Positions 7,531 through 20,745 of a stretch of DNA of 22,214 nucleotides are shown one piece after another; position 1 is the first letter of the stretch, and each line of letters begins with the position of its first letter. The DNA is from a virus. A program made the position numbers and the translations under genes. Location: positions 1 to 22,214 of the IMG/VR virus record IMGVR_UViG_3300022934_004096; one strand, given 5' to 3'. Under the pieces are notes generated by a model. It saw nothing but the letters and a program-made list of their open reading frames with translations. It did not search any database and was not told the origin of the DNA.

Positions 7531-8085
7531 TTACGCAGTAACGCGAACGAACTTGATCAGTTGGCTGCGGTAATCAAGCGAACTTCCGGCCCAATCGGTG
7601 CTGACCCGCTGGCACTTGAACGCCGCCGGGAACTGATGCTCGTCAGAACCAAGCGGAGCAGAAAGGCCAGCCTCGGCGACAACCTTCCAAGCATACACAT
7701 TCATCGTGTTGCCAGTAACAGCCATCGCATGCTCGATGTGGAGAGCATAGCTGGTCGTGAGCGGGTCGCCACCGAAACTGAAAGTGTCCGAACCACCACC
7801 GCTGGTAGTTTGGCCGGCTCCCAGAATCGCGGCGAAGTTATCGAAGTTCCACTCAATCGAAGTGAAGTTGATCATCACACCTTGAGTCTGACTGAAGGTG
7901 TACTCGATCAGCTTCGGGTTACCCTGCATGATGTCCCGACGTTCGCTGGAAACCTCAATGGTGACGCCATCTTCGGTGATGAATCCAACGTCAGTCGAAG
8001 GGGTAGATCCGGCTGCGCCAAGGTAAACTTTGGCAGGTCCGAAAGAGATATTATTGGTGCTACCTGATGGAATGTTTAAAGGCAT
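7531..8085 (-). CDS. Major tail tube protein
   Basis: This 184-residue protein should polymerise into the tail tube. Its start, PLNIPSGSTNNISFGPAKVYLG, followed by GFITEDGVTIEVSSERRDI and the beta-rich remainder, matches the pattern of siphophage tube proteins: an N-terminal arm, a strand that describes the deformation of the entry (FITEDGV), then a beta-sandwich. It is followed immediately by a strong terminator and then by the chaperone frames, the usual tail tube gene position. The ATG at 8085 has GAG 8 bases upstream. The 70-base gap ahead of it holds one copy of the recurrent leader element. Confidence 0.88.
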   Translation of the reverse strand: MPLNIPSGSTNNISFGPAKVYLGAAGSTPSTDVGFITEDGVTIEVSSERRDIMQGNPKLIEYTFSQTQGVMINFTSIEWNFDNFAAILGAGQTTSGGGSDTFSFGGDPLTTSYALHIEHAMAVTGNTMNVYAWKVVAEAGLSAPLGSDEHQFPAAFKCQRVSTDWAGSSLDYRSQLIKFVRVTA

Positions 8086-9085: not shown

Positions 9086-9565
9086 TTACCGCACCTTGAG
9101 TACGCGGTTCCTGTAAGTAGAAGCTAATACTTTTTGAAGCTTTTTTTGTACTTGTTTTTGTTGGACTGTTTGATTTAGCGTATCGCGACCCAACATGACG
9201 CTCGTTCCTTGAATCACAGCTTCCGCCACCAAACCACTCACAGAGATTTGGTAGTCAACCGATTTCCTTGTGTGGACAACTTCGCCTTTCAAGGTTCGAA
9301 GGATACTTCCACCACCTTGATCGTGTACCAACCAAGGTCGTTGACTGTGAACCAAAATGCGTCCGTGCCTGACTGCATACGGGTGATCTAAAGCCGTTAA
9401 TTGATCTTGAGTATATGTGTGGTCTGAAAGGTTCTTTCGGATTGCTTTCAGAGCAACATCACCGGCAGCATCAATAGCTGCATGTGCAGCCATCCGGTTT
9501 GTTTTGATAAGCCGTTTGAACGTCTGGAGCGTGATGCGTAAATCTTTCGAGTCCACGCGATACAT
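9086..9565 (-). CDS. HK97 gp10-like neck / tail completion protein
   Basis: This basic 159-residue protein resembles gp10-like proteins: an N-terminal helical part (DLRITLQTFKRLIKTNRMAA and ALKAIRKNLSDHTYT), then DHPYAVRHG and LVHDQGG, then beta strands, and a basic C-terminal helix (QVQKKLQKVLASTYRNRVLKVR). The helix-DHPYA-beta layout is typical of HK97 gp10 and related neck proteins that sit at the head-tail junction. The ATG at 9565 has GGTGG a few bases upstream. It follows a 106-base non-coding gap that holds a strong hairpin. Confidence 0.75.
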   Translation of the reverse strand: MYRVDSKDLRITLQTFKRLIKTNRMAAHAAIDAAGDVALKAIRKNLSDHTYTQDQLTALDHPYAVRHGRILVHSQRPWLVHDQGGGSILRTLKGEVVHTRKSVDYQISVSGLVAEAVIQGTSVMLGRDTLNQTVQQKQVQKKLQKVLASTYRNRVLKVR

Positions 9566-9671: not shown

Positions 9672-12587
9672 CTAGGGTTGTTCTTCGTGCCCATCTGTCG
9701 GAGCCGGAATCAACCCATCTTCGATCATTTGGTAGACCATTTCATCGGGCAGTGAGAATGAAGGAAGTTCAATGTCCGGAAGGGTCGTATTCCCAACACG
9801 GCTTTGAACTGTCAAATGCCCGAATGCTTCAACCACCCGGACAACTTCTTCCTGCCATGGATGCTTCTTCGTTGTTCGTTTTGCGCTTTCAACCAACAAT
9901 GCTTTCGCCAATCGAAGGTGATGAACTCCCAATTCCTTGAAGGCCAAGTAGCTTTCGCCGGCACATGCAACGCCGCGCTCGTAGCATTCTTGAGCTTTGC
10001 CGAGGTTCCCGTCGTTCGCGAATTGAAGGCCGAGCGAAACCCAAGCACCAGAATTGTGTGGGTTGTCTTCGAGTTCTTTCACCAACATGCGCCGGTACTT
10101 GTTCAACTTTCCTTCAAGCTTGTCGTCTTCGACCGTAAGTCCGAAATGATTGCAAGTGAACGGCGCGTATCGAAGCATAGGATGCACTCCGTTCTTGCGG
10201 AGCGTTTTGACCGCTGCATCGAATCCCTCGTGGACCCGTGAGTTCATGCGCATGATTCCGGACGCATCCAACCGAGTAATCCGAAGACTTTCACTCATGG
10301 ATGCGGGTGCGCCTCGCAGGAAGTTCCGGAATCTGAACATCCAACCCCATCCGTCACTCGTTTCGACCATGGAACGAATGCAACGCAGGCTAACAGTTGG
10401 TTCACCTTGGAACCGTTCATCTGCGTCTTGAAACCAAGCCCAATCAACGCCTTGAGTCTGCAATTGATTCAATGCTGCATTCCGACACTCCGACAAGTCA
10501 TCGTCGAACTCTGAATGGACCCAAATCACGTCGTAAAGTTTCGCAAACGCAGCCAACGTGCGTCCGGGTCCAGTCTCGGGCCATTCGTTTTCCGGAATAT
10601 CCAACTCATCAACGTTGGAGTCCAACCAATGCTTATCTTCGTCAGACCATTCGCCGGTCCAAACTAAAACCATCGCATCGGACATCGAGTAAGAATCATT
10701 CAGCCACATTGCAACGTCTTCCGGACTTTCACCGGAATGAGTAAGCATGTAAAAGCCGATGCGATTGTGGGGAACGTAGGGGCGTAGCTTCATCCCTTCT
10801 TCGGCAACAATGTGACTGTAATCATTGCCTCCAACTAGAACCGCGTCGGGATTCGGATCGATCTTTGAGTACCAAGCATATTTGTTCGTACGTTGTGAAC
10901 TATGCATGTACCCGAAGTGGCGAAATCGAATGTTTGCTACTCGGCGAGAGCCATTGCCGGAATCTGGGCAATTACCGCAGTGAAGTCCCTTTTCAGTTCC
11001 CGCAATGATCTTCCGAGGGTTCGCTTTGTTGACTCGCCAAAGCCGGGTTCCGCTCATACCACCCGAATAGCTTCCGCCATCACCCCAAGGTCGATCAACG
11101 CGAATCATCCGAGGGCTTTCCCAATGATTCAACCAACCGAACTCGAAACCATCCACCAAGGGATCTGGGTGATTGAATAACCGCTCGAAATGATACCTTG
11201 TTACTTGGTCTTCAATGACTTCGTCGTGATCGATGGACAACAACCAGTCGGCATCCATCTGAATTCCGAGTTCAATGGCTCGATTCCTTTCATCGCGCTC
11301 ATTCCAAAACCCTTCCCAACATTCAACGGAAACATCGGGCTCGAAACCAACCAACTTTGAGATGGACTTGATCCAGTCCATCGTTGCATTCGCAACTTCG
11401 GTTGAATTCGCATTCGAGCAAGATCGAAGCCAAGCAATATCGTAGTCCTGCAAACTCCCGTGCATCTGGTTCCAATCGCTTCCGGATTGGATTTCGAGCG
11501 GATTATTCGTAAGCAAAACCGCGATGCCGTCGCTGACGGAACAAGCTTTCGCAATCGAATTCCTCCAATAATGGAGGTCTTGAACCGTACGAATAGCAAC
11601 TCGGTAAATGCTAATCATGCGGTTTGACCCCGTCTTTTTCCACTTCCGGTAGTAATTCTCCCGGTTACGCATACCGCGCATCATTTCCGGAAAAGCACGA
11701 TCGAAAGTTTGGTGCCCGAGGTGTCCGATGAAAACTCCGCGAGCAACCGCTAACCGCCAACCTGCCATCATTACTCGGTGGCAAAGATCATTGTCTTCGT
11801 AACCAGCAATCGGGTAATTATCCGCATCGAACATCGGGCCGTTATTCCCTTCCAGCCAAATGTCGAGTAAACAATCACGGCGGATCATCATGCAGAATCC
11901 GCTTAAAAAGTTGCATGTAAGGTTTAACGTATCCGGATTCTGCGTGTGCCAAACCGCAGCGGCACTATCGTAAAGGTCTTGGTCCTTCACGGTAGGGGTC
12001 ATTTGATCGTGACCAAACTTCAACTGCATCGCTTGTTTCAACACGTCTTCATCCAATGCGACTTGTTGAATACCTGCGACTTGATTGCTGCACGGGCCAA
12101 TCATTCCGATTTTCCCATACAACTTCCGATCTCTGACGGGGCGACTCCCCAACTTGCCATCGACCACAACCGGCGGCTCCGTACACAACGAAATGTCATC
12201 GCTGTTGATTGCGACTAAAAGCTTCGTCAACCAACCCGGCGTAACTCGCAGGTCATCGTTGAAAATGAGCACATATTCGGGCAAACCACCAGATTGAATC
12301 GCAGCGCGAAGACCGATATTGATAGCACCGCCGAATCCGCGAAGCCCGTCCTCGACGTGCATATCGAGGGTTACCCCGTTTGGGCATGCAGCCCGCAAGA
12401 CGCGAAGGGCTTGAATGCTTTTCGCCGCGTTCTCAACCGAATCAGGGTTGATGGAAACCATGATACGAGTTCTGGCAGGCACGCGATTCACAAGCAAATG
12501 CATGCTTGGAAGAAGCACCGAAGGGTCTGCAACGGTAGGCACAACGATAAGCGTATCGTTGTTACTATCAAAAGTAACCGAGTTCAT
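9672..12587 (-). CDS. Three-module glycosyltransferase with TPR-like C-terminus, 971 residues
   Basis: This is a multi-domain GT-A (family 2-like) glycosyltransferase. Module 1, residues 1-320: FNDDLRV at 109-115 is a metal/nucleotide-sugar DXD-type site, and GYEDNDLCHRVMMAGW at 262-277 is the acceptor-side ED-x-DLC motif typical of GT2 enzymes. Module 2, about 325-590: LLSIDHDEVIED near 449-460 is a second DxD-type site. Module 3, about 605-840: FQDADER at 719-725 is a third, followed by SRVHEGF at 783-789, the RxHE motif of SunS-like GT2 enzymes. Residues about 840-900 (NPHNSGAWVSLGLQFANDGNLGKAQECYERG) look like a TPR repeat. There is no signal peptide or membrane segment, so it should act in the cytoplasm. 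AGGAG lies 5 bases ahead of the ATG. Which sugar and acceptor are used is unknown; virion proteins are the natural guess. Confidence 0.88.
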   Translation of the reverse strand: MNSVTFDSNNDTLIVVPTVADPSVLLPSMHLLVNRVPARTRIMVSINPDSVENAAKSIQALRVLRAACPNGVTLDMHVEDGLRGFGGAINIGLRAAIQSGGLPEYVLIFNDDLRVTPGWLTKLLVAINSDDISLCTEPPVVVDGKLGSRPVRDRKLYGKIGMIGPCSNQVAGIQQVALDEDVLKQAMQLKFGHDQMTPTVKDQDLYDSAAAVWHTQNPDTLNLTCNFLSGFCMMIRRDCLLDIWLEGNNGPMFDADNYPIAGYEDNDLCHRVMMAGWRLAVARGVFIGHLGHQTFDRAFPEMMRGMRNRENYYRKWKKTGSNRMISIYRVAIRTVQDLHYWRNSIAKACSVSDGIAVLLTNNPLEIQSGSDWNQMHGSLQDYDIAWLRSCSNANSTEVANATMDWIKSISKLVGFEPDVSVECWEGFWNERDERNRAIELGIQMDADWLLSIDHDEVIEDQVTRYHFERLFNHPDPLVDGFEFGWLNHWESPRMIRVDRPWGDGGSYSGGMSGTRLWRVNKANPRKIIAGTEKGLHCGNCPDSGNGSRRVANIRFRHFGYMHSSQRTNKYAWYSKIDPNPDAVLVGGNDYSHIVAEEGMKLRPYVPHNRIGFYMLTHSGESPEDVAMWLNDSYSMSDAMVLVWTGEWSDEDKHWLDSNVDELDIPENEWPETGPGRTLAAFAKLYDVIWVHSEFDDDLSECRNAALNQLQTQGVDWAWFQDADERFQGEPTVSLRCIRSMVETSDGWGWMFRFRNFLRGAPASMSESLRITRLDASGIMRMNSRVHEGFDAAVKTLRKNGVHPMLRYAPFTCNHFGLTVEDDKLEGKLNKYRRMLVKELEDNPHNSGAWVSLGLQFANDGNLGKAQECYERGVACAGESYLAFKELGVHHLRLAKALLVESAKRTTKKHPWQEEVVRVVEAFGHLTVQSRVGNTTLPDIELPSFSLPDEMVYQMIEDGLIPAPTDGHEEQP

Positions 12588-12597
12588 TTTTTCTCCT

Positions 12598-12613
12598 GCG
12601 CCTGTTTGGCGTC
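12598..12613 (-). promoter_or_regulatory. Copy 2 of recurrent leader element GACGCC-N4-AGGCGC
   Basis: The minus strand reads GACGCCAAACAGGCGC, starting inside the stop codon of the previous gene and ending just ahead of the AGGAG ribosome binding site of the glycosyltransferase. CGCC pairs with GGCG around a 5-base loop. Confidence 0.4.
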
Positions 12614-13268
12614 ATTCTGATTGAGAAGAGTCTCGCCTTGTCACAACGATTTCCCAAAAACGCGGTAAGTAACCGCCGAATCGGATCGGAACGCTCCGCA
12701 CGAACCATTCCGAAGCATCAATTTCATCTACAAAAATGTCCCCGATCCGGGGATACCAAGTTTCATCATAATTGATGTATAACCTTGCCTGTTCCTGCTC
12801 GGACATGCTCGGCCATTCACCACGATACGGACGCTGACCGGGTCCGCTCGAAGTACCACCGCGATCAATAAACCCGGGCCAACCCGTCTTCAAAGTGGTT
12901 TGCATGTGTTGGATTGAACCGTCAGGACCAATTGATTTCACTTTGATTGTTGGAACTGTTGATTCATCGCTAAAACCCGTCGTGGTAACACTCGAAACGG
13001 ACACAAACCTTTTTGAAGTGGATTTGAAACCATTGTTGGTAAAAGTCAGAGTTTCCGATCCTGCACCCGTATTACCGGGCGAAGTAACCACAGTCCCCGT
13101 GAACGTAATGCTTCCCGTACCATCAGAACCGCCAGAGACTTGTACTTGAAGGCAAGTTTCTCTTTGAAGCGCATAATCCAATGACATCGTGTCCTGCGCG
13201 GTTGCGTTTAGCAGAACCGACAGGTTTCTGACAACCGTATAGAAACTATTCGGACTGCTGAATATCAC
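12612..13268 (-). CDS. Unknown virion protein, possible head-closure (stopper) protein
   Basis: From a GTG at 13268 this is 218 residues. I chose this start because GAGG lies 9 bases upstream; a TTG at 13277 would be only one base from that GAGG. The gene overlaps the previous one by 23 bases. Residues about 40-115 form a Gly/Ser/Thr-rich beta domain (GGSDGTGSITFTGTVV, SETLTFTNNG, RFVSVSSVTTTGFSDES) like carbohydrate-binding or Ig-like virion folds. The C-terminal part (PRIGDIFVDEIDASEWFVRSV then FWEIVVTRRD) resembles the beta-barrel layout of head-tail joining (stopper) proteins, in which a GDI/V-type loop is followed by a WxVxxV strand. It lies between the connector and gp10-like genes, where a stopper should be. 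The identification is tentative. Confidence 0.55.
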   Translation of the reverse strand: MIFSSPNSFYTVVRNLSVLLNATAQDTMSLDYALQRETCLQVQVSGGSDGTGSITFTGTVVTSPGNTGAGSETLTFTNNGFKSTSKRFVSVSSVTTTGFSDESTVPTIKVKSIGPDGSIQHMQTTLKTGWPGFIDRGGTSSGPGQRPYRGEWPSMSEQEQARLYINYDETWYPRIGDIFVDEIDASEWFVRSVPIRFGGYLPRFWEIVVTRRDSSQSE

Positions 13269-13785
13269 TTTCTTCAACCTCTACATCAGTTTCGATGCTT
13301 GCCGAAGTGGGTGTTTCTTCCGGATGCTTTACGGGTTCAATTGGGTAAGGAGACCGGTGAATGTACTCGACAACGGAAGGTTTATTTCCCGCTTCCCAAG
13401 CCGCTTCGATGGTGGATTCCCACTCGTCAACTTCCCCGACACCGACCACAGTGTAAATGCTTCTCCGAAGCGGATCAGAGTCAATGACAGCCACCGCCCT
13501 GATCTCGCTCTTCGTAAGTTCTCGGAACGAAACAACGACTACAACAGAACCAACCGCAGACGAAATGATTTTGCTGTTCGAAGCTGAATCAGGTCCAAAT
13601 CCAATAATCGTCAACCCATTATCGTAGCTTGTAAGCACTTTTTTGCTTGGGCAACAAGTCACCCGGGCATTGCCAAACGGGGAAGATGCTTCTTTCGCAA
13701 TGACATCATCACATCGGCTGAAGCCAGGGAATGAAGCACTTGATAAATTCAGCGCAATTCCGATCGTTCTTCGATTATGCCTCAT
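13246..13785 (-). CDS. Hypothetical protein, 179 residues
   Basis: I do not recognise this protein. The ATG at 13785 overlaps the upstream stop (TAATG), so translation is coupled. The middle is beta-rich and hydrophobic (KIISSAVGSVVVVVSF, IYTVVGVGEV). The last 40 residues are acidic and unstructured-looking (PVKHPEETPTSASIETDVEV). The pattern of a compact beta domain plus acidic tail is seen in small phage virion or assembly proteins. It overlaps the next gene by 23 bases. It could be part of the neck or an accessory factor of the sugar cassette; nothing in the sequence decides this. Confidence 0.7.
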   Translation of the reverse strand: MRHNRRTIGIALNLSSASFPGFSRCDDVIAKEASSPFGNARVTCCPSKKVLTSYDNGLTIIGFGPDSASNSKIISSAVGSVVVVVSFRELTKSEIRAVAVIDSDPLRRSIYTVVGVGEVDEWESTIEAAWEAGNKPSVVEYIHRSPYPIEPVKHPEETPTSASIETDVEVEESDIQQSE

Positions 13786-14447
13786 TAATCCCTCCGATAC
13801 GGCGTTGTGATTGTAATCACGTTCTGCTCGCGTTGGCGTAACTTCGGCTTCTTGGCTTCAGCCTTCCGTTCTTTCTTAATGATTTTAACAGGTTCCGGGA
13901 GGAAACGATTGTTGCTTTGTTCTAGCACCAAACCTTCGAGGTCAACATTCTCGATAATTTCAGTTGTTATCCTTTCACACAAACCAACATAGCGATTTTG
14001 TTTATACGATTCTTCGGATTCCCAAAGGTCTTGAGAGGTAGACACATCGTAAGGCAAACCTTCTGCGCGTAGCCGGCGCATCCACCGCCTATGCGTTGAT
14101 TCGCCAACATTGTTCGGGAACAAAGGGTTCTGAACAACAACCAACAAGTCGGAAATCATGTTGAGTGTTGTTGTCGATTCGTGAATCAACCGAGCATAAA
14201 CTTTTGGAGGAATTGTACTGAACCTTCCGAGCCAAACGATGGAAATGACTTCGGTGTCGTCAGGAATAGCTGAAAACAATGAACTTCCTGTTCTGATCGC
14301 ATCATCAAGAACAAAAGATTCAGTGATTCGCGGGATCGGAAGCACGCTTATCGTCATACCTTTCCCACGGAGGCAATCAGCAATGTTGAAAGCGAGAGGA
14401 AACCCCTTCCATCCCGGCGAATCGGTGTAAACAGCTAACGTTTTCAT
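13785..14447 (-). CDS. Hypothetical Rossmann-like protein, possible glycosyltransferase relative
   Basis: From the ATG at 14447 (220 residues), which overlaps the epimerase stop as ATGA, the protein starts MKTLAVYTDSPGWKGFPLAF, a beta-loop-alpha opening. It continues through NIADCLRGKGMTISVLPIPR and then VISIVWLGRFSTIPPKVYARL. This resembles the N-terminal half of a GT-B fold (beta, GF.LA..IA..L...G, beta), but I see no nucleotide-sugar binding C-terminal half. The C-terminal 45 residues are strongly basic (KIIKKERKAEAKKPKLRQREQ). An upstream-extended reading from 14609 would lie inside the epimerase gene and is rejected. Position right behind the epimerase hints at sugar metabolism. That link is inference. 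Confidence 0.7.
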   Translation of the reverse strand: MKTLAVYTDSPGWKGFPLAFNIADCLRGKGMTISVLPIPRITESFVLDDAIRTGSSLFSAIPDDTEVISIVWLGRFSTIPPKVYARLIHESTTTLNMISDLLVVVQNPLFPNNVGESTHRRWMRRLRAEGLPYDVSTSQDLWESEESYKQNRYVGLCERITTEIIENVDLEGLVLEQSNNRFLPEPVKIIKKERKAEAKKPKLRQREQNVITITTPYRRD

Positions 14448-15538
14448 CGAATGAGACCCTTTTCCACAAGCTTGTTGTGGGCTTCTTGTGTTTTGTTTTC
14501 GGGACGCTGTTGCTTTGCCCATTGCACCAAATCTGCAAGGCCAACTTCCGGAGTACGTGGTTTCCAATCCGGCAGATAACCACGTAACCGGCGGTTGTCC
14601 GAGTAACAATGCCGAATATCACCTACTCGGTATTTGTTGACCACATTTGGGAGCAGATTTGAACCATGAAGTTTGATTAACGTCTGTGCAAGTTCAAGGA
14701 TGGTGGTTTGTTTTCCAGTACCAACATTGAAAACACCAACAATGTCGTCTTCGGTAGCCATTCGAACTACCGCCTCTGCCACGTCCTCAACATGAATGAA
14801 ATCCCTTGACTGGCCCCCGTCTTCGTAAATACGGGGGGCTTCGCCGTTCAAAATCATGGAGTTGAATATCGCAGCGACACCCGTGTATGGGTTGGACATT
14901 TGCTGCCGGGGGCCGTAAACGTTGAAAAACCGGGGGACTACAACAGGAATGTTGTTTTGTTCCCCGATCATTATCGACATATCTTCCTGATCTCTTTTCG
15001 TTTGAGCATATACGGATTGAATATCGAACTCTTTCCACTCTGGAGTTGCTTTCGGCGTCAAAGAATTGAATTCCCAATTTCTGGCTTTGAGATTCTCTTC
15101 TGAACGAACTCCCGGATAACGAAAGGAATTGTCTTCGCAGACATACAACCCTTCTCCGTAAGAACTCATTGAACCGGCAACAACAACTTTTTTGGGCTTG
15201 GAATCCGACTCAATGATGGTTTGCCAAAGCGAAGCCGTCCCCAGCGTGTTGCTTTTCACGTAATGAACTGGTTCATATGCGCTCTCACCAACCCCTACAG
15301 CAGCGGCGAGGTGAATCACTACTTCGCAACCACTCAACGCTTCTGCGAGCGACTCTTGGTCTAATACATCGCCTCGAATCTTGTGGACGTCAGGGTTCAA
15401 GTAGTCAGGCCAATCATTCGATGGATGAACATCAGGCAACAAGCAATCGTACACAACCGGCTCAAACCCACGTTCGAGCAGTAAATCCACCACGAACGAG
15501 CCAATGAACCCGGCTCCGCCAGTAACCAAAACCTTCAT
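14444..15538 (-). CDS. NAD-dependent sugar epimerase/dehydratase (extended SDR)
   Basis: This 364-residue enzyme should bind NAD and act on a nucleotide sugar such as UDP- or dTDP-hexose (4-epimerase or 4,6-dehydratase type). The Rossmann TGGAGFIG motif is at residues 6-13, HLAAAVG at 76-82, the catalytic serine region GSMSSYG at 122-128, and the YxxxK pair at Y177/K181. RFFNVYGPRQ at 203-212 and the substrate-loop DFIHVEDVAEAV are classic for the family. All key residues are present and the length is usual or slightly long. It lies 21 bases after the phosphoesterase stop, with a GAGAG-type ribosome binding site, and is coupled to the next gene by ATGA. It probably supplies a modified sugar donor for the downstream glycosyltransferase. 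The exact substrate cannot be read from sequence. Confidence 0.93.
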   Translation of the reverse strand: MKVLVTGGAGFIGSFVVDLLLERGFEPVVYDCLLPDVHPSNDWPDYLNPDVHKIRGDVLDQESLAEALSGCEVVIHLAAAVGVGESAYEPVHYVKSNTLGTASLWQTIIESDSKPKKVVVAGSMSSYGEGLYVCEDNSFRYPGVRSEENLKARNWEFNSLTPKATPEWKEFDIQSVYAQTKRDQEDMSIMIGEQNNIPVVVPRFFNVYGPRQQMSNPYTGVAAIFNSMILNGEAPRIYEDGGQSRDFIHVEDVAEAVVRMATEDDIVGVFNVGTGKQTTILELAQTLIKLHGSNLLPNVVNKYRVGDIRHCYSDNRRLRGYLPDWKPRTPEVGLADLVQWAKQQRPENKTQEAHNKLVEKGLIR

Positions 15539-15559: not shown

Positions 15560-16627
15560 TCAATGTTGGGAACGTAACCAAGTCAAATAATCACAACCTG
15601 TTTCCAAATCCCAAAAAACACTAATTCTACCCGGTCCATCCGAAAACGGATTGATCACGACTAAAGCTGATTCACCATACGTTTGTTCAAAGAAACCTTT
15701 CTCTTTCGCATACGAGTCATTTCGTTTGTAACCACGAACCCGCAGTGCATGAGTAATCCGTGCATGCCGTTGTTCGGTCGTCAGAATGCCCCACTGATGC
15801 AAATGACCAGCAGTGAGCAAATGGCATCGCCCGTCCAACATAGCCTCTTTGTGAGGTCCGTGCGTGGGATGATACCACGACCTTCCAGAAAAATCGTGGC
15901 GCAAAATCCAAACAACAGGTTCTAACTCCTGATCTTCCCACTTGATTGTTACGCGCAATTCATCGGGAGCATAACATTTGACTCCGCATTTCTGCGTGAG
16001 CCAAGCCATCGGGTCAACACCCGGCCCATGTGCCCAAGCATCATGGTTTCCACCAACAATAGCAATCCATTGAAGTTGATCGAGAAACCATTCCGAAAGC
16101 CGCCATCCGTCTTCGGCCTTTACACTGGTTTTCGAATACAACCGGGCGAGTCGACCAACCCAATTATCTTGCATATCACCTACACAAGCCGCCAATACGC
16201 CTTCGGTTTCTTGAGCTAATTTGATGTGATCGAAGAGTGTATCCCAATCACAACCCTCGTTATCAACATGAGGGTCGCCAAAAATCATAATCCCAACTGG
16301 CTTCGACTCTAACCGAACGACTTTTTTATGCTTTGTTACTTTGTTTTTCTTTTTCCTGCTTACTTCAACACGTTGAGCAACAAGTTGTTCGATTGGTTCT
16401 TCTTCGGTGACTTCATCCTCAATCACCATGTCAATCAAATTGCTTCTTCGCGTTTGCTCACCAATTTTGAGTTTTTCCAGAGCCATACGCATAGCCCACG
16501 CAGAGACGGGCTCACCAATCAACTCTGAAATGTGTTCTGCACATCGTCGTCTACCAAGCCCTTCCGCTACTAAAGACTCAATCACATCAGAATAATTGGC
16601 AATGAGATAATCGCTTGTGATCGACAT
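15560..16627 (-). CDS. Calcineurin-like metallophosphoesterase with N-terminal helical domain
   Basis: From the ATG at 16627 the protein has 355 residues. All metal-binding blocks of the family are present: GDPH (117-120), GD (150-151), GNHD (193-196), H244 and GHLH (274-277). The first 55 residues (YSDVIESLVAEGLGRRRCAE, then HISELIGEPVSAWAMRMALE) look like a helix-turn-helix or small helical domain. A charged Lys-rich linker (SRKKKNKVTKHKKV) follows. I chose the ATG at 16627 with GAGG 6 bases upstream. A TTG at 16639 is less likely. The substrate is unknown: nucleic acid ends, nucleotides, cyclic nucleotides and sugar phosphates are all possible. It precedes the epimerase gene and overlaps no virion function that I recognise. 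The fold call is firm. Confidence 0.93.
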   Translation of the reverse strand: MSITSDYLIANYSDVIESLVAEGLGRRRCAEHISELIGEPVSAWAMRMALEKLKIGEQTRRSNLIDMVIEDEVTEEEPIEQLVAQRVEVSRKKKNKVTKHKKVVRLESKPVGIMIFGDPHVDNEGCDWDTLFDHIKLAQETEGVLAACVGDMQDNWVGRLARLYSKTSVKAEDGWRLSEWFLDQLQWIAIVGGNHDAWAHGPGVDPMAWLTQKCGVKCYAPDELRVTIKWEDQELEPVVWILRHDFSGRSWYHPTHGPHKEAMLDGRCHLLTAGHLHQWGILTTEQRHARITHALRVRGYKRNDSYAKEKGFFEQTYGESALVVINPFSDGPGRISVFWDLETGCDYLTWLRSQH

Positions 16628-16635
16628 AATTCCCC

Positions 16636-16869
16636 TCAAGACTCGATAAAGCTTTTGGAAACAACCGTTGCACCGTGGTTCTCACAAATGTCGTCCACGA
16701 TTCGATCACACAAATCTTCGCCAAGAACGACGAGAACGACCGCACACCTTTGATGGTCGTTAGCGGACAACGAAGCAAAACCGATGGGTTTATTCGCACG
16801 CAAACACTCGGTCAACGCTACGCTAGCACCGTAACTGACTGCATCAATCCACGATTGAATATGTTTCAT
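16636..16869 (-). CDS. Hypothetical small protein, 77 residues
   Basis: I recognise no family. The ATG at 16869 has GAGGAG 8 bases upstream; a GTG at 16875 would place it too close. The sequence is mixed alpha/beta with QSWIDAVSYGASVALTECLR and VVLVVLGEDLCDRIVDDICE, and has three cysteines. It starts 66 bases after the connector gene and its stop lies just past the upstream TTG of the phosphoesterase gene, so the two are tightly linked. The good ribosome binding site supports expression. Confidence 0.65.
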   Translation of the reverse strand: MKHIQSWIDAVSYGASVALTECLRANKPIGFASLSANDHQRCAVVLVVLGEDLCDRIVDDICENHGATVVSKSFIES

Positions 16870-17883: not shown

Positions 17884-18897
17884 TTACGACGTGCTCAACC
17901 CGATAAGCAGGGAGCCGCCGCGAGTGTTCGCGTGGACGTAAGCACCGTCCCAGAACATATCGAACTGATCGAATTGCGAATCCGTCTTCGAGAGCGGCAT
18001 CACAGTCGTAGGAGTAAGCTCCTCGATGTAGCAGTAACGCTTGTTGAGGACGGCGAGGGCAGTCGAGGTTCCCCCGTCAAACGTCAGAAGCGAAGAACCG
18101 CCGGAAGCCGGTTGAAGCGTGTCGGGCATTGCCGTGGACACGATAAGCGGAATCCCATCGTAGGTGCGAACCCGGAAACCGGCAGCAATCTCGGTCATAT
18201 TCGAGAACTGCTGGTCAGCCTGGAGCGCAGCGTTGACCTTCCGAAGACCCGCGAACGAGCCAACAATCACAAGGTCGGAACGCATCGCCGAACCCTTGAC
18301 CTTGTCAATCGCCTCGTCGAGAGAAGCGAGCGAAAGACTCGTGCCAGCGGCGGCATCCGTCAGACCGACAACGGCACTGCTGCCGATGTTGGACATGAGG
18401 GTAAGCAAGCCGTTGATCTGGTTCGCATTCGCGTTGCTGTCACCGGAGATAAGTCCGGATTCAAGCGCAGCGGCGAAATCCTCGGCCTTGCCGGTCATTT
18501 CCTGGGCGAGAGCATCGCCGTAAGAACGACCGATCGCCTGGAGCTTCCGCGTGACCTTGCCACGGGTCGCAAGCGTCTGGTACGTGAACGAAGTTTGGGC
18601 GTACGACCCGCTCTCTTCGGTGAGAGAACCGGTGTCTGCGACCCATTCTGCGCCCGTAGTACCCGCCGAACGACGGTTGATGTATGCCTTGTCTCCCGAA
18701 CCCGGGTAACGGTCGAGAACCGACTGTAGACCGAACTCACGGATCGTAAGCATCTGGACAACGCGGTTGATGAAGGTCTGGATAAGGACCGACCCGGCGT
18801 TGCTGACGTTGATAGCGCGCTCGAAAGCTTCCCGTTTCGCCGGATCAGCAGATCCGAGCCAAGTGGGGCCGCCATACTGGTTCCAATCGATAGACAT
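17884..18897 (-). CDS. Major capsid protein (HK97 fold)
   Basis: This 337-residue protein should form the capsid shell. It is highly ordered along the HK97 pattern: a helical N-terminal segment, LIQTFINRVVQMLTIREFGL, a hairpin with AYINRRSAGTTGAEWVADTGSL, then TEESGSYAQTSFTYQTLATRG (the spine region), an Ala-rich A domain, and RVRTYDGIPLIVSTAMPD, a PVV-like strand used in HK97-fold capsids. It lies behind the protease/scaffold gene and is followed by a strong terminator, and it uses more G- or C-ending codons than its neighbours, as expected for the most abundant protein. The ATG at 18897 has AGGGG just upstream, overlapping the previous stop. Confidence 0.95.
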   Translation of the reverse strand: MSIDWNQYGGPTWLGSADPAKREAFERAINVSNAGSVLIQTFINRVVQMLTIREFGLQSVLDRYPGSGDKAYINRRSAGTTGAEWVADTGSLTEESGSYAQTSFTYQTLATRGKVTRKLQAIGRSYGDALAQEMTGKAEDFAAALESGLISGDSNANANQINGLLTLMSNIGSSAVVGLTDAAAGTSLSLASLDEAIDKVKGSAMRSDLVIVGSFAGLRKVNAALQADQQFSNMTEIAAGFRVRTYDGIPLIVSTAMPDTLQPASGGSSLLTFDGGTSTALAVLNKRYCYIEELTPTTVMPLSKTDSQFDQFDMFWDGAYVHANTRGGSLLIGLSTS

Positions 18898-18906
18898 CGT
18901 TTTCCC

Positions 18907-19359
18907 CTAGCCCCAACGAGGAGCAATGTTTTGGTTGCCAAGGAAACCGTCATACTCTGCTGCACAAAGCACATCGGTTAACATGCGAATAAGAGTAGAG
19001 CGATCAGTGGTCTGATCGAGCGACTCACCACTGTTTTGAACAACCGTTGCAGCCACAGTGGGAGCGTCGGTCTTCGCCCGCTCGGCGAGTCCAGCGAGAG
19101 CAGTAACACCAGCTTTTCCTTCCGGAGCGTACGGCATCGTAGCGCGCCCGACCCGAACGGGGCGAGAAGCAAGCGTTTGAATCTGCTTTTGGGCAGCCTC
19201 AAGCTGGGTTCGAAGTTGCTGAATCTCGGTATCGTCAGAGGTCGCCGTCGGTGCGTTGTCAACCGAAGTCCGGTTTTCGACAGCGTCCAGCCGTGCGGCA
19301 ATGCCTCCAACCGACGCCTCGATCATCGAGCGGATTGCGTCAAGATCGTCCTTTGTCAT
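18907..19359 (-). CDS. Possible nested scaffold protein from internal start, 150 residues
   Basis: An in-frame ATG at 19359 (residue 463 of the fused protease) has GAGG at 19368-19371, 8 bases upstream, a good ribosome binding site inside a gene. The product would be 150 residues, beginning MTKDDLDAIRSMIEASVGG, followed by a heptad coiled coil and a C-terminal basic and acidic stretch. Nested scaffold starts of this type are known in lambda (C and Nu3) and related phages. Expression here is inferred from the sequence only. Confidence 0.55.
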   Translation of the reverse strand: MTKDDLDAIRSMIEASVGGIAARLDAVENRTSVDNAPTATSDDTEIQQLRTQLEAAQKQIQTLASRPVRVGRATMPYAPEGKAGVTALAGLAERAKTDAPTVAATVVQNSGESLDQTTDRSTLIRMLTDVLCAAEYDGFLGNQNIAPRWG

Positions 19360-20745
19360 GGATTGGTCCTCGGTGGGGGTGTTATTTGGAGCACCTTTTT
19401 CGGCGTCGTCCCAAGTGTTGCATGTTTCACTAACTTGTGCAAGACCCACCAATGAATTTGAACTATCGATAATTGATAATTCTTTCAGTGGTGGAACCTG
19501 TTTATCGAACTTCTCATAATACTTAACAAGGTGATCGTAAACCGATTGCCGGTCTTCTTCGGGAATATCTACGCCGCCGCGCGCACCATTCAGCGCCGCC
19601 AGAGCAGCGGAAACTCCTCTCCAGACTGCGTGAAGCCGATCATCGATAAACAGGGCAATGGGTAATTTGTAACCTGCTTTTGTTTCGGCATTCTCGGGAT
19701 CAAACCAAACATGTGCTCGTTTATACCGATCCCAATCATCGTCCCCTAAAACAAGGTTAGATGCTTCGGTGCTCCAATCCCATTCGGTATCGATTGGCGC
19801 GAGAGGAAGGTCAGCGAATTCAACAGCGCCGCGAGTGTCTTCCGGCCCGTCTTCGACCATCTCTTTTTCTTCTTCTTCATGGCCAGCCATTTCTTCTTCG
19901 TGCTTTGCCATCTCTTCTTCATCGTCGTGCTTTGCCATCTCTTCTTCATCGTCGTGCTTCGACTTTTCATCGTCGTGATACGACTCTTCTTCCATCTCGC
20001 CTTCATGGTGTTTGGCGAACTCAACAACGAAAGAGTCTTCTTTCTCTTCGACAGAAACGATATGGCGCTCGTCTTCTGTCTTGATGGCACCTTCAATCAT
20101 GCTGCGCAGCGCAAGATTGTATGAATCTGGATTCGCAGGAGCGCGAGTGATGGCGATGTGGTCAAGGTCAACTTGTTCCACAACCATTCGCTCAACATTC
20201 CCATCTGAATCTTCGAGAACACGAACGTTGAGGAACCAACCACCAATTGACTGGCCGATAGGTTCGCCACGGCTCAAACGACGGCTTAATTCTTTCGCTA
20301 ACGGCTCGTCACGATACAACACCGAATCCAGAACCAGGGTATATCCCTGCTCCGAATCATTTGCCGCTTGAACGACATCAGACTTTACGACTTTCGCCCG
20401 AACAGTCCGACCGATAACTTCATCCCACTCAACAGCGCGATTTCCGTTGTTGTGGCGCGGGAGAATCGGTAGCCCTTTCTGCATTTGATCGCTCATGGAA
20501 TCCAAAGCCGTTCGGCTCATTTCCGTTCCATAGTGATCAACTGAAGTCGAAGAAGCAACGCCGCTGATTAACAATTCAGAGCTTTCATTCACTTCTTCTT
20601 CGGAAGAATGTTCGCTTCGGCTTACGCTCGACGGTTTGATGGGAAGGCCACTGAATGGAAACCTTCCACGGAAAAACCGCTCTTTCTTCCCATTATCAAG
20701 CGAAACAGTTTCATCTAACTTCATCGTATCAGTAGCGCGGCTCAT
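18907..20745 (-). CDS. Prohead protease fused to acidic linker, second domain and scaffold, 612 residues
   Basis: Residues about 50-215 form an HK97-type (U35) prohead protease: SGVASSTSVDHYGTEMSRTALDS, then LPRHNN with the catalytic His98, GQSIGGW with Ser166, and DHIAITRAPANPDSY. The protease cuts scaffold and capsid ends during maturation. Residues about 250-300 are an acidic linker of HDDEEEMAK repeats. Residues 310-415 (YKRAHVWFDPENAETKAGYK to DHLVKYYEKF) make a domain found next to such proteases in many phages. Residues 463-612 (MTKDDLDAIRSMIEA, then QLRTQLEAAQKQIQTLASRP) are a coiled-coil scaffold-like part. Separate protease and scaffold genes are more usual; fusion as in lambda C/Nu3 is known. 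The ATG at 20745 has GGAG 5 bases upstream. Confidence 0.9.
   Translation of the reverse strand: MSRATDTMKLDETVSLDNGKKERFFRGRFPFSGLPIKPSSVSRSEHSSEEEVNESSELLISGVASSTSVDHYGTEMSRTALDSMSDQMQKGLPILPRHNNGNRAVEWDEVIGRTVRAKVVKSDVVQAANDSEQGYTLVLDSVLYRDEPLAKELSRRLSRGEPIGQSIGGWFLNVRVLEDSDGNVERMVVEQVDLDHIAITRAPANPDSYNLALRSMIEGAIKTEDERHIVSVEEKEDSFVVEFAKHHEGEMEEESYHDDEKSKHDDEEEMAKHDDEEEMAKHEEEMAGHEEEEKEMVEDGPEDTRGAVEFADLPLAPIDTEWDWSTEASNLVLGDDDWDRYKRAHVWFDPENAETKAGYKLPIALFIDDRLHAVWRGVSAALAALNGARGGVDIPEEDRQSVYDHLVKYYEKFDKQVPPLKELSIIDSSNSLVGLAQVSETCNTWDDAEKGAPNNTPTEDQSMTKDDLDAIRSMIEASVGGIAARLDAVENRTSVDNAPTATSDDTEIQQLRTQLEAAQKQIQTLASRPVRVGRATMPYAPEGKAGVTALAGLAERAKTDAPTVAATVVQNSGESLDQTTDRSTLIRMLTDVLCAAEYDGFLGNQNIAPRWG
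19901..19975 (-). repeat. 27-base tandem repeat in the protease linker
   Basis: Two exact copies of a 27-base unit occur at 19901-19927 and 19928-19954, followed by a shorter diverged copy at 19955-19975. They encode the acidic HDDEEEMAK units of the linker. The short, mostly exact copies may vary in number between relatives. Confidence 0.85.

Follow-up and report, generated by a model that had tools for sequence, protein, structure and literature searches.

A predicted three-module glycosyltransferase with a TPR-like tail encoded in the structural operon of an uncultured phage family

Among the described systems that come closest to the protein reported here are the S-glycosyltransferases SunS and ThuS (TIGR04195; PDB 7msp, 7msn, 7msk), which are alike in their GT-A fold and helical C-terminal part but differ in that SunS has one glycosyltransferase (GT) module and a small bacteriocin peptide as substrate, whereas here three modules are found in a structural operon. 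GmaR of Listeria, a flagellin GlcNAc transferase (PDB 22ao), is likewise built from a GT domain followed by TPR and is matched by the profile of our module 3 (E 7e-9), but its single GT is joined to a long TPR/antirepressor part. The protein glycosylated by GmaR is flagellin, which its TPR has been proposed to recognise or bind (PMC9638930). Single chains with GT-A modules in tandem are known from the chondroitin polymerase K4CP, heparosan synthase 2 and LARGE1, but these are alternating polymerases with two modules and no TPR tail and show only 9–13% identity. In viruses, A111/114R of the chlorovirus PBCV-1 is described as having three GT domains of about 300 aa each and has been assigned to capsid-glycan synthesis (PMC7826918); it differs in coming from a eukaryotic algal virus, the abstract mentions no TPR, and the likeness is one of described domain build. 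Phage virion glycosylation is documented for few groups. In mycobacteriophages of the Che8 type, phage-encoded GTs probably decorate the capsid and tail tube proteins (PMC11256854 and PMC12619734, both citing Freeman 2023); they are separate genes, which in Maravista lie close to the 3' genome end. Finally, BFVD holds multi-GT-A proteins of giant viruses and of uncultured Caudovirales, for example the uncharacterised A0A6J5LLV3 (1443 aa), whose fold matches ours over 877 columns (E 5.2e-24) at a sequence identity of 13%. A viral three-GT polypeptide for a capsid glycan, mycobacteriophage virion glycosylation and multi-GT-A phage proteins are thus already known, and the judgement of an earlier note, made from the sequence alone, that the present protein is an unusual build for a phage has to be tempered. 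For this architecture in a phage structural operon no description was found in the literature searched (partial coverage).

Here we describe such a protein, with three GT-A modules, conserved sites, a conserved place in the morphogenesis operon and a linked decay of modules 1 and 2 among its relatives. The window, i.e. the whole stretch of DNA that was analysed, is a virus record of 22,214 bases with a late operon on the minus strand, in which tail genes at low coordinates are followed by tape measure, tail, neck, head-tail, capsid and protease-like genes. The GT gene and its neighbours are as follows.

7531..8085, minus strand: probable major tail protein (MTP), same operon (phrog_117 3.4e-4; phrog_2175, Ig domain, 2.1e-10)
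9086..9565, minus strand: conserved downstream neighbour, probably neck/tail completion as inferred from position; directly after the GT in all relatives sequenced there
9672..12587, minus strand: three-module glycosyltransferase with TPR-like tail (P0001), 971 aa; intact ORF, orthologs, AlphaFold pLDDT 84.8
12612..13277, minus strand: conserved upstream neighbour of the GT, probably head-tail joining as judged from position; syntenic homologs in nearly all relatives
14444..15538, minus strand: NAD-dependent nucleotide-sugar epimerase/dehydratase, likely donor supply (PF01370 1.8e-43; galE-like, below the equivalog cut-off)
17884..18897, minus strand: major capsid protein (MCP), same operon (phrog_212 2.3e-19)

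The GT reading frame comprises 971 codons with an ATG start, no internal stops and an AGGAG ribosome-binding site 5 nt ahead of the ATG, and is a genuine intact gene. Common to the group is the gene order MCP, g17488, head-tail adaptor, usually an NAD sugar epimerase, g12612, GT, g9086, g8658 and MTP, and the order around the GT is maintained down to 56% MCP identity. Most relatives have an epimerase homolog upstream of the GT, the counterparts elsewhere in the family being more 4,6-dehydratase-like (contig L008) or RmlD-like (L011); it is absent beside the GT gene in L021 and L038, both with preserved or nearly preserved modules. A clean link between the epimerase and an intact module 1 was considered and rejected, as module 1 is intact in L021 even though no epimerase lies next to its GT gene. 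At the GT locus no bacteriocin biosynthetic context was found, the neighbours being phage structural genes. The context is consistent with an enzyme that is expressed late and acts on virion components, using a sugar produced locally, and the operon position fits virion modification without proving it.

Direct searches with the 971-aa protein gave no relatives in 50,697 records of isolated phages, nor did a single-sequence search of IMG/VR, and the capsid protein had no tblastn match among isolated phages. Relatives were reached via the capsid protein (15 contigs) and then by a profile scan with the family alignment. Nearly all capsid-found contigs that reach far enough carry a syntenic GT ortholog, and the profile scan raises the orthologs to about 16 distinct uncultured phage contigs with 25–50% identity to the 971-aa protein, the copy number being one in each of ten contigs tested. 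No relative was detected in 84,980 prokaryote genomes by a pattern-based scan with two short peptides, which could miss distant relatives. As far as the searched collections show, the GT family is a family of uncultured phages; its GT and capsid trees are poorly resolved. The pattern WFQDADE led to a single contig, L017, whose two GT genes are not fused and match module 2 weakly. The only distant capsid relative in prokaryote genomes, L041, lies on a Dehalococcoidia MAG contig and shows 30% identity, without synteny and without the GT, and no host is assigned from it.

All motifs listed in the earlier note, NDD at 110–112, EDNDLC at 264–269, SIDHDE at 451–456, FQDADE at 719–724 and RVHE at 784–787, are present in the translation at these residues. 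As about 4% of composition-shuffled versions of the 971-aa protein also contain two or more DxDE motifs, motifs alone are weak evidence, and it is their conservation across the aligned homologs that is decisive for the putative sites. The predicted modules and motifs are the following.

11637..12587, minus strand: module 1, aa 1–317, GT2/GT-A (Pfam PF13641 3.2e-11; fold)
12252..12260, minus strand: module 1 NDD, aa 110–112; NDD in 12 of 15 rows, HDD in L009, SDK in L013, NND in L038
11781..11798, minus strand: module 1 EDNDLC, aa 264–269; [ED]DND in 13 of 15 rows, HDND in L013, QVDD in L009
10770..11636, minus strand: module 2, aa 318–606, divergent GT-A and paralog of module 3 (AlphaFold of the module alone, Foldseek to SunS, hhalign)
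11220..11231, minus strand: module 2 DHDE, aa 453–456; the two Asp unchanged in all 17 rows
10971..10985, minus strand: module 2 LHCGN loop, aa 535–539; HCG in all 12 sequenced rows with preserved module 1, lost in L009, L013, L011 and L012
10128..10769, minus strand: module 3, aa 607–820, SunS/GmaR-like GT-A (family profile matches SunS 3e-9, GmaR 7e-9, ThuS 4e-5)
10416..10427, minus strand: module 3 DADE, aa 721–724; DxDE invariant in 16 of 16 rows
10227..10235, minus strand: module 3 VHE, aa 785–787; HE invariant in 16 of 16 rows
9813..10127, minus strand: TPR-like helical tail, aa 821–925 (DSSP helices 821–841, 846–858, 862–874, 881–904 and 912–925; profile matches consensus TPR)

The full-length AlphaFold model (17-row alignment; mean pLDDT 84.8, pTM 0.83), in which the inter-domain placement is itself uncertain, shows three regions with the alternating strands and helices of the GT-A fold, followed by the TPR-like helical tail, and in each module the acidic motif comes right after a core strand (strand 105–109 and NDD110; 448–453 and DHD453; 716–719 and DAD721). 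A Foldseek search of the whole model against the PDB gave as top hits enzymes with two GT-A modules (K4CP 4.6e-12, heparosan synthase 2, LARGE1) as well as SunS/ThuS (1.8e-11). The Foldseek TM-scores are modest (0.40–0.57). The proposed architecture of three GT-A modules and a TPR-like tail in one polypeptide is therefore borne out by the model and by Foldseek; a second or third region lacking the GT-A fold, the outcome named beforehand as speaking against it, did not occur, and module 2 on its own came out nearest to SunS.

As the best whole-model matches, K4CP and heparosan synthase 2, are two-GT-A polymerases, we also considered a polymerase of the chondroitin/heparosan synthase kind, in which two GT-A modules alternate on a repeating polymer and the third primes on a protein, and an obligate pair of this kind would fit the way in which modules 1 and 2 decay together (see below). 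With these enzymes, however, the identity is 11–13%, a common module arrangement was not found (rmsd 14–21 Å over about 600 columns, TM 0.14–0.21 by query length), and modules 1 and 2 have no detectable profile relation to each other (probability 0.5%), which makes such a polymerase improbable.

A GT2 profile is matched directly by module 1 only and by modules 2 and 3 via homologs. The relative L038 ties the modules together, as it matches Pfam PF00535 in three stretches (1.6e-36), Glyco_tranf_2_4, TPR and the SunS family TIGR04195 (3e-12). Judged by its PF13641 match, module 1 is an ordinary general GT2 and differs from modules 2 and 3, as had been supposed; its GT-A fold is supported by strand order and Pfam. 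The narrower assignment to a rhamnosyl or galactosyl type could not be established, with TIGR01556 rhamnosyltransferase at 0.019, mycofactocin MftF at 8e-4 and galactosyltransferase GalT1 at 0.007. Purifying selection acts on module 1 in relatives that retain it (dN 0.14, dS 1.09, dN/dS 0.13 for the pair L002/L004).

Module 3 and the tail are, according to the profiles, SunS/GmaR-like, and for SunS homology and a common fold are indicated by both the module 3 profile (3e-9) and the structure (1.8e-11). In this protein alone module 3 is barely detected by Pfam and the TPR stays under the Pfam cut-off, but the family profile matches consensus TPR strongly. The tail extends over about 2–3 helix pairs in the model and is no long TPR array. 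The SunS equivalog TIGR04195 is not matched by the 971-aa protein; only L038 matches it, with 46 bits vs a cut-off of 350. These assignments also bear on a role at the host surface, in which each module would add one sugar to a cell-envelope acceptor and the modified glycan or glycolipid would serve receptor masking or superinfection exclusion. Module 1 does resemble the GT2 of cell-surface polysaccharides (PF13641, PF00535, weak TIGR01556), and GTs of temperate phages can alter the host serotype, as discussed in PMC12619734. We regard such a role as unlikely, since the module 3 profile points to protein/peptide GTs, the gene lies inside the late structural operon and not with early or lysogeny genes, and inspection of the 971-aa sequence by eye revealed no evident hydrophobic membrane segment.

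Module 2 is the least certain region of the three-module model. In this protein it has no Pfam match and no significant match to a solved GT (best 0.17, PDB sequences). Folded alone by AlphaFold it reaches a pLDDT of 90.3 and a pTM of 0.89, and Foldseek finds SunS as its best PDB match (E 7.5e-7, TM 0.40), with further GT-A enzymes and the structurally similar nucleotidyltransferases ranking next. An hhalign comparison of its profile with that of module 3 (E 2.4e-6) brings the DxD motifs into register and identifies module 2 as a diverged paralog. The idea that modules 2 and 3 are both SunS-type consequently holds for module 3 by profile and for module 2 by fold and paralogy, but not by a significant sequence match of module 2 to any solved GT.

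D453, D455 and E459 of module 2 are invariant across 17 homologs, and so are R702, N703, D721, D723, E724, H786 and E787 in all 16 rows covering module 3, whose RN, DxDE and HE are thus intact in every sequenced row. This argues against a GT-derived virion component, located for instance in the neck, that binds carbohydrate or serves as a scaffold but is no longer catalytic. The location of the gene between joining and tail-completion genes and the loss of the module 1 acidic motif in some relatives would suit such a component, but no positions of the family are more constant than the presumed catalytic residues in modules 2 and 3, and a gene for a nucleotide-sugar enzyme adjoins, so that we give this explanation little credence.

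The relatives differ in what has become of module 1, which is degraded in L009 (HDD, QVDD) and in L013 (SDK), whereas L011 and L012 lack it and encode a two-module protein of about 600 aa with modules 2 and 3 (L011:15601-17409 and L012:8517-10322). Exactly these four contigs have a module 2 without LHCGN and without the His of RHFGY, the DxD of module 2 still being present in the decayed lineages. We used ratios of amino-acid identity because synonymous sites are saturated for dN/dS in L011/L012. The identity ratio of the module 2 core to the module 3 core is 1.04–1.61 in all 55 pairs of intact orthologs, i.e. module 2 is more conserved, vs 0.75 for L009-L013 and 0.66 for L011-L012, where it is less conserved. 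From this shared decay, seen in two independent lineages, modules 1 and 2 appear to be functionally coupled, and module 3 with the tail appears to be a self-sufficient core. Inactivity of one module, raised as a possibility in the earlier note, is not apparent in the present protein, in which all three sites are intact, but finds a counterpart in the two related lineages with a decayed or missing module 1. With module 1 intact, degraded or deleted, these natural versions would offer a compact system to test the coupling of GT modules. The g8658 homologs of L011 and L012 lie within far longer ORFs of about 577 aa. The phage of L009 also carries two paralogous, unassigned ORFs of GT-like look upstream of the protease gene, L009:914-1756 and L009:3817-4782, which start with MYKNKKIYAVYR and MYKGKKIYVVYR; neither has an NCBIfam match, and the second has no PHROG match.

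Taking these results together, we lean slightly towards a cytoplasmic Leloir-type three-module GT that is made late and puts a short glycan on at least one virion protein, with module 3 and the TPR priming and modules 2 and 1 extending. The GT would be expressed together with the structural genes and act in the cytoplasm with nucleotide sugars, supplied in part by the neighbouring epimerase. By analogy to SunS or GmaR, the TPR-like tail might grip a phage structural protein, to which module 3 would add the first sugar, and modules 2 and then 1 would add further ones; the activity itself, the protein target, the sugars and the order of the steps are what we infer. A Ser/Thr-rich acceptor tail was not evident by eye at the C-termini of the capsid and tail proteins. 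Glycosylation of modified bases in the phage DNA, which virus-encoded GTs perform in other phages (cited in PMC12619734), seems very improbable here, as no hydroxymethylase of the thymidylate-synthase type was found in ten related records, which reach up to 76 kb and may be incomplete (control recovered); the same records gave no Tet_JBP match, but there the control was not recovered either.

Beyond a late GT that modifies the virion, a more far-reaching and rather doubtful proposal is that of a sugar assembly line on one polypeptide, encoded by an uncultured phage family within its structural operon, in which a SunS/GmaR-like module with its TPR grip would prime a virion protein and two evolution-linked GT-A modules would extend to a defined glycan, so that virion glycosylation would be built into assembly. 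If true, virion glycosylation would be a heritable part of particle assembly in a broad group of uncultured phages.

Further genes were noted in the operon of the window. On the minus strand at 18907-20745 lies a gene for a 612-aa protease/scaffold-like protein with the low-complexity acidic stretch HDDEEEMAKHDDEEEMAKHEEE and no PHROG match. The ORF after the epimerase gene (13785-14609, minus strand) overlaps the epimerase 3' end by about 110–165 bases, depending on the start codon, and has no Pfam or PHROG match and no homolog in related loci. Between the connector genes and the epimerase, at 15560-16639 on the minus strand, a metallophosphoesterase-like protein is encoded (GDPHVD, GDMQDNW, GNHDAW, GHLH), which matches the DNA repair exonuclease family phrog_7339 with 2.5e-32.
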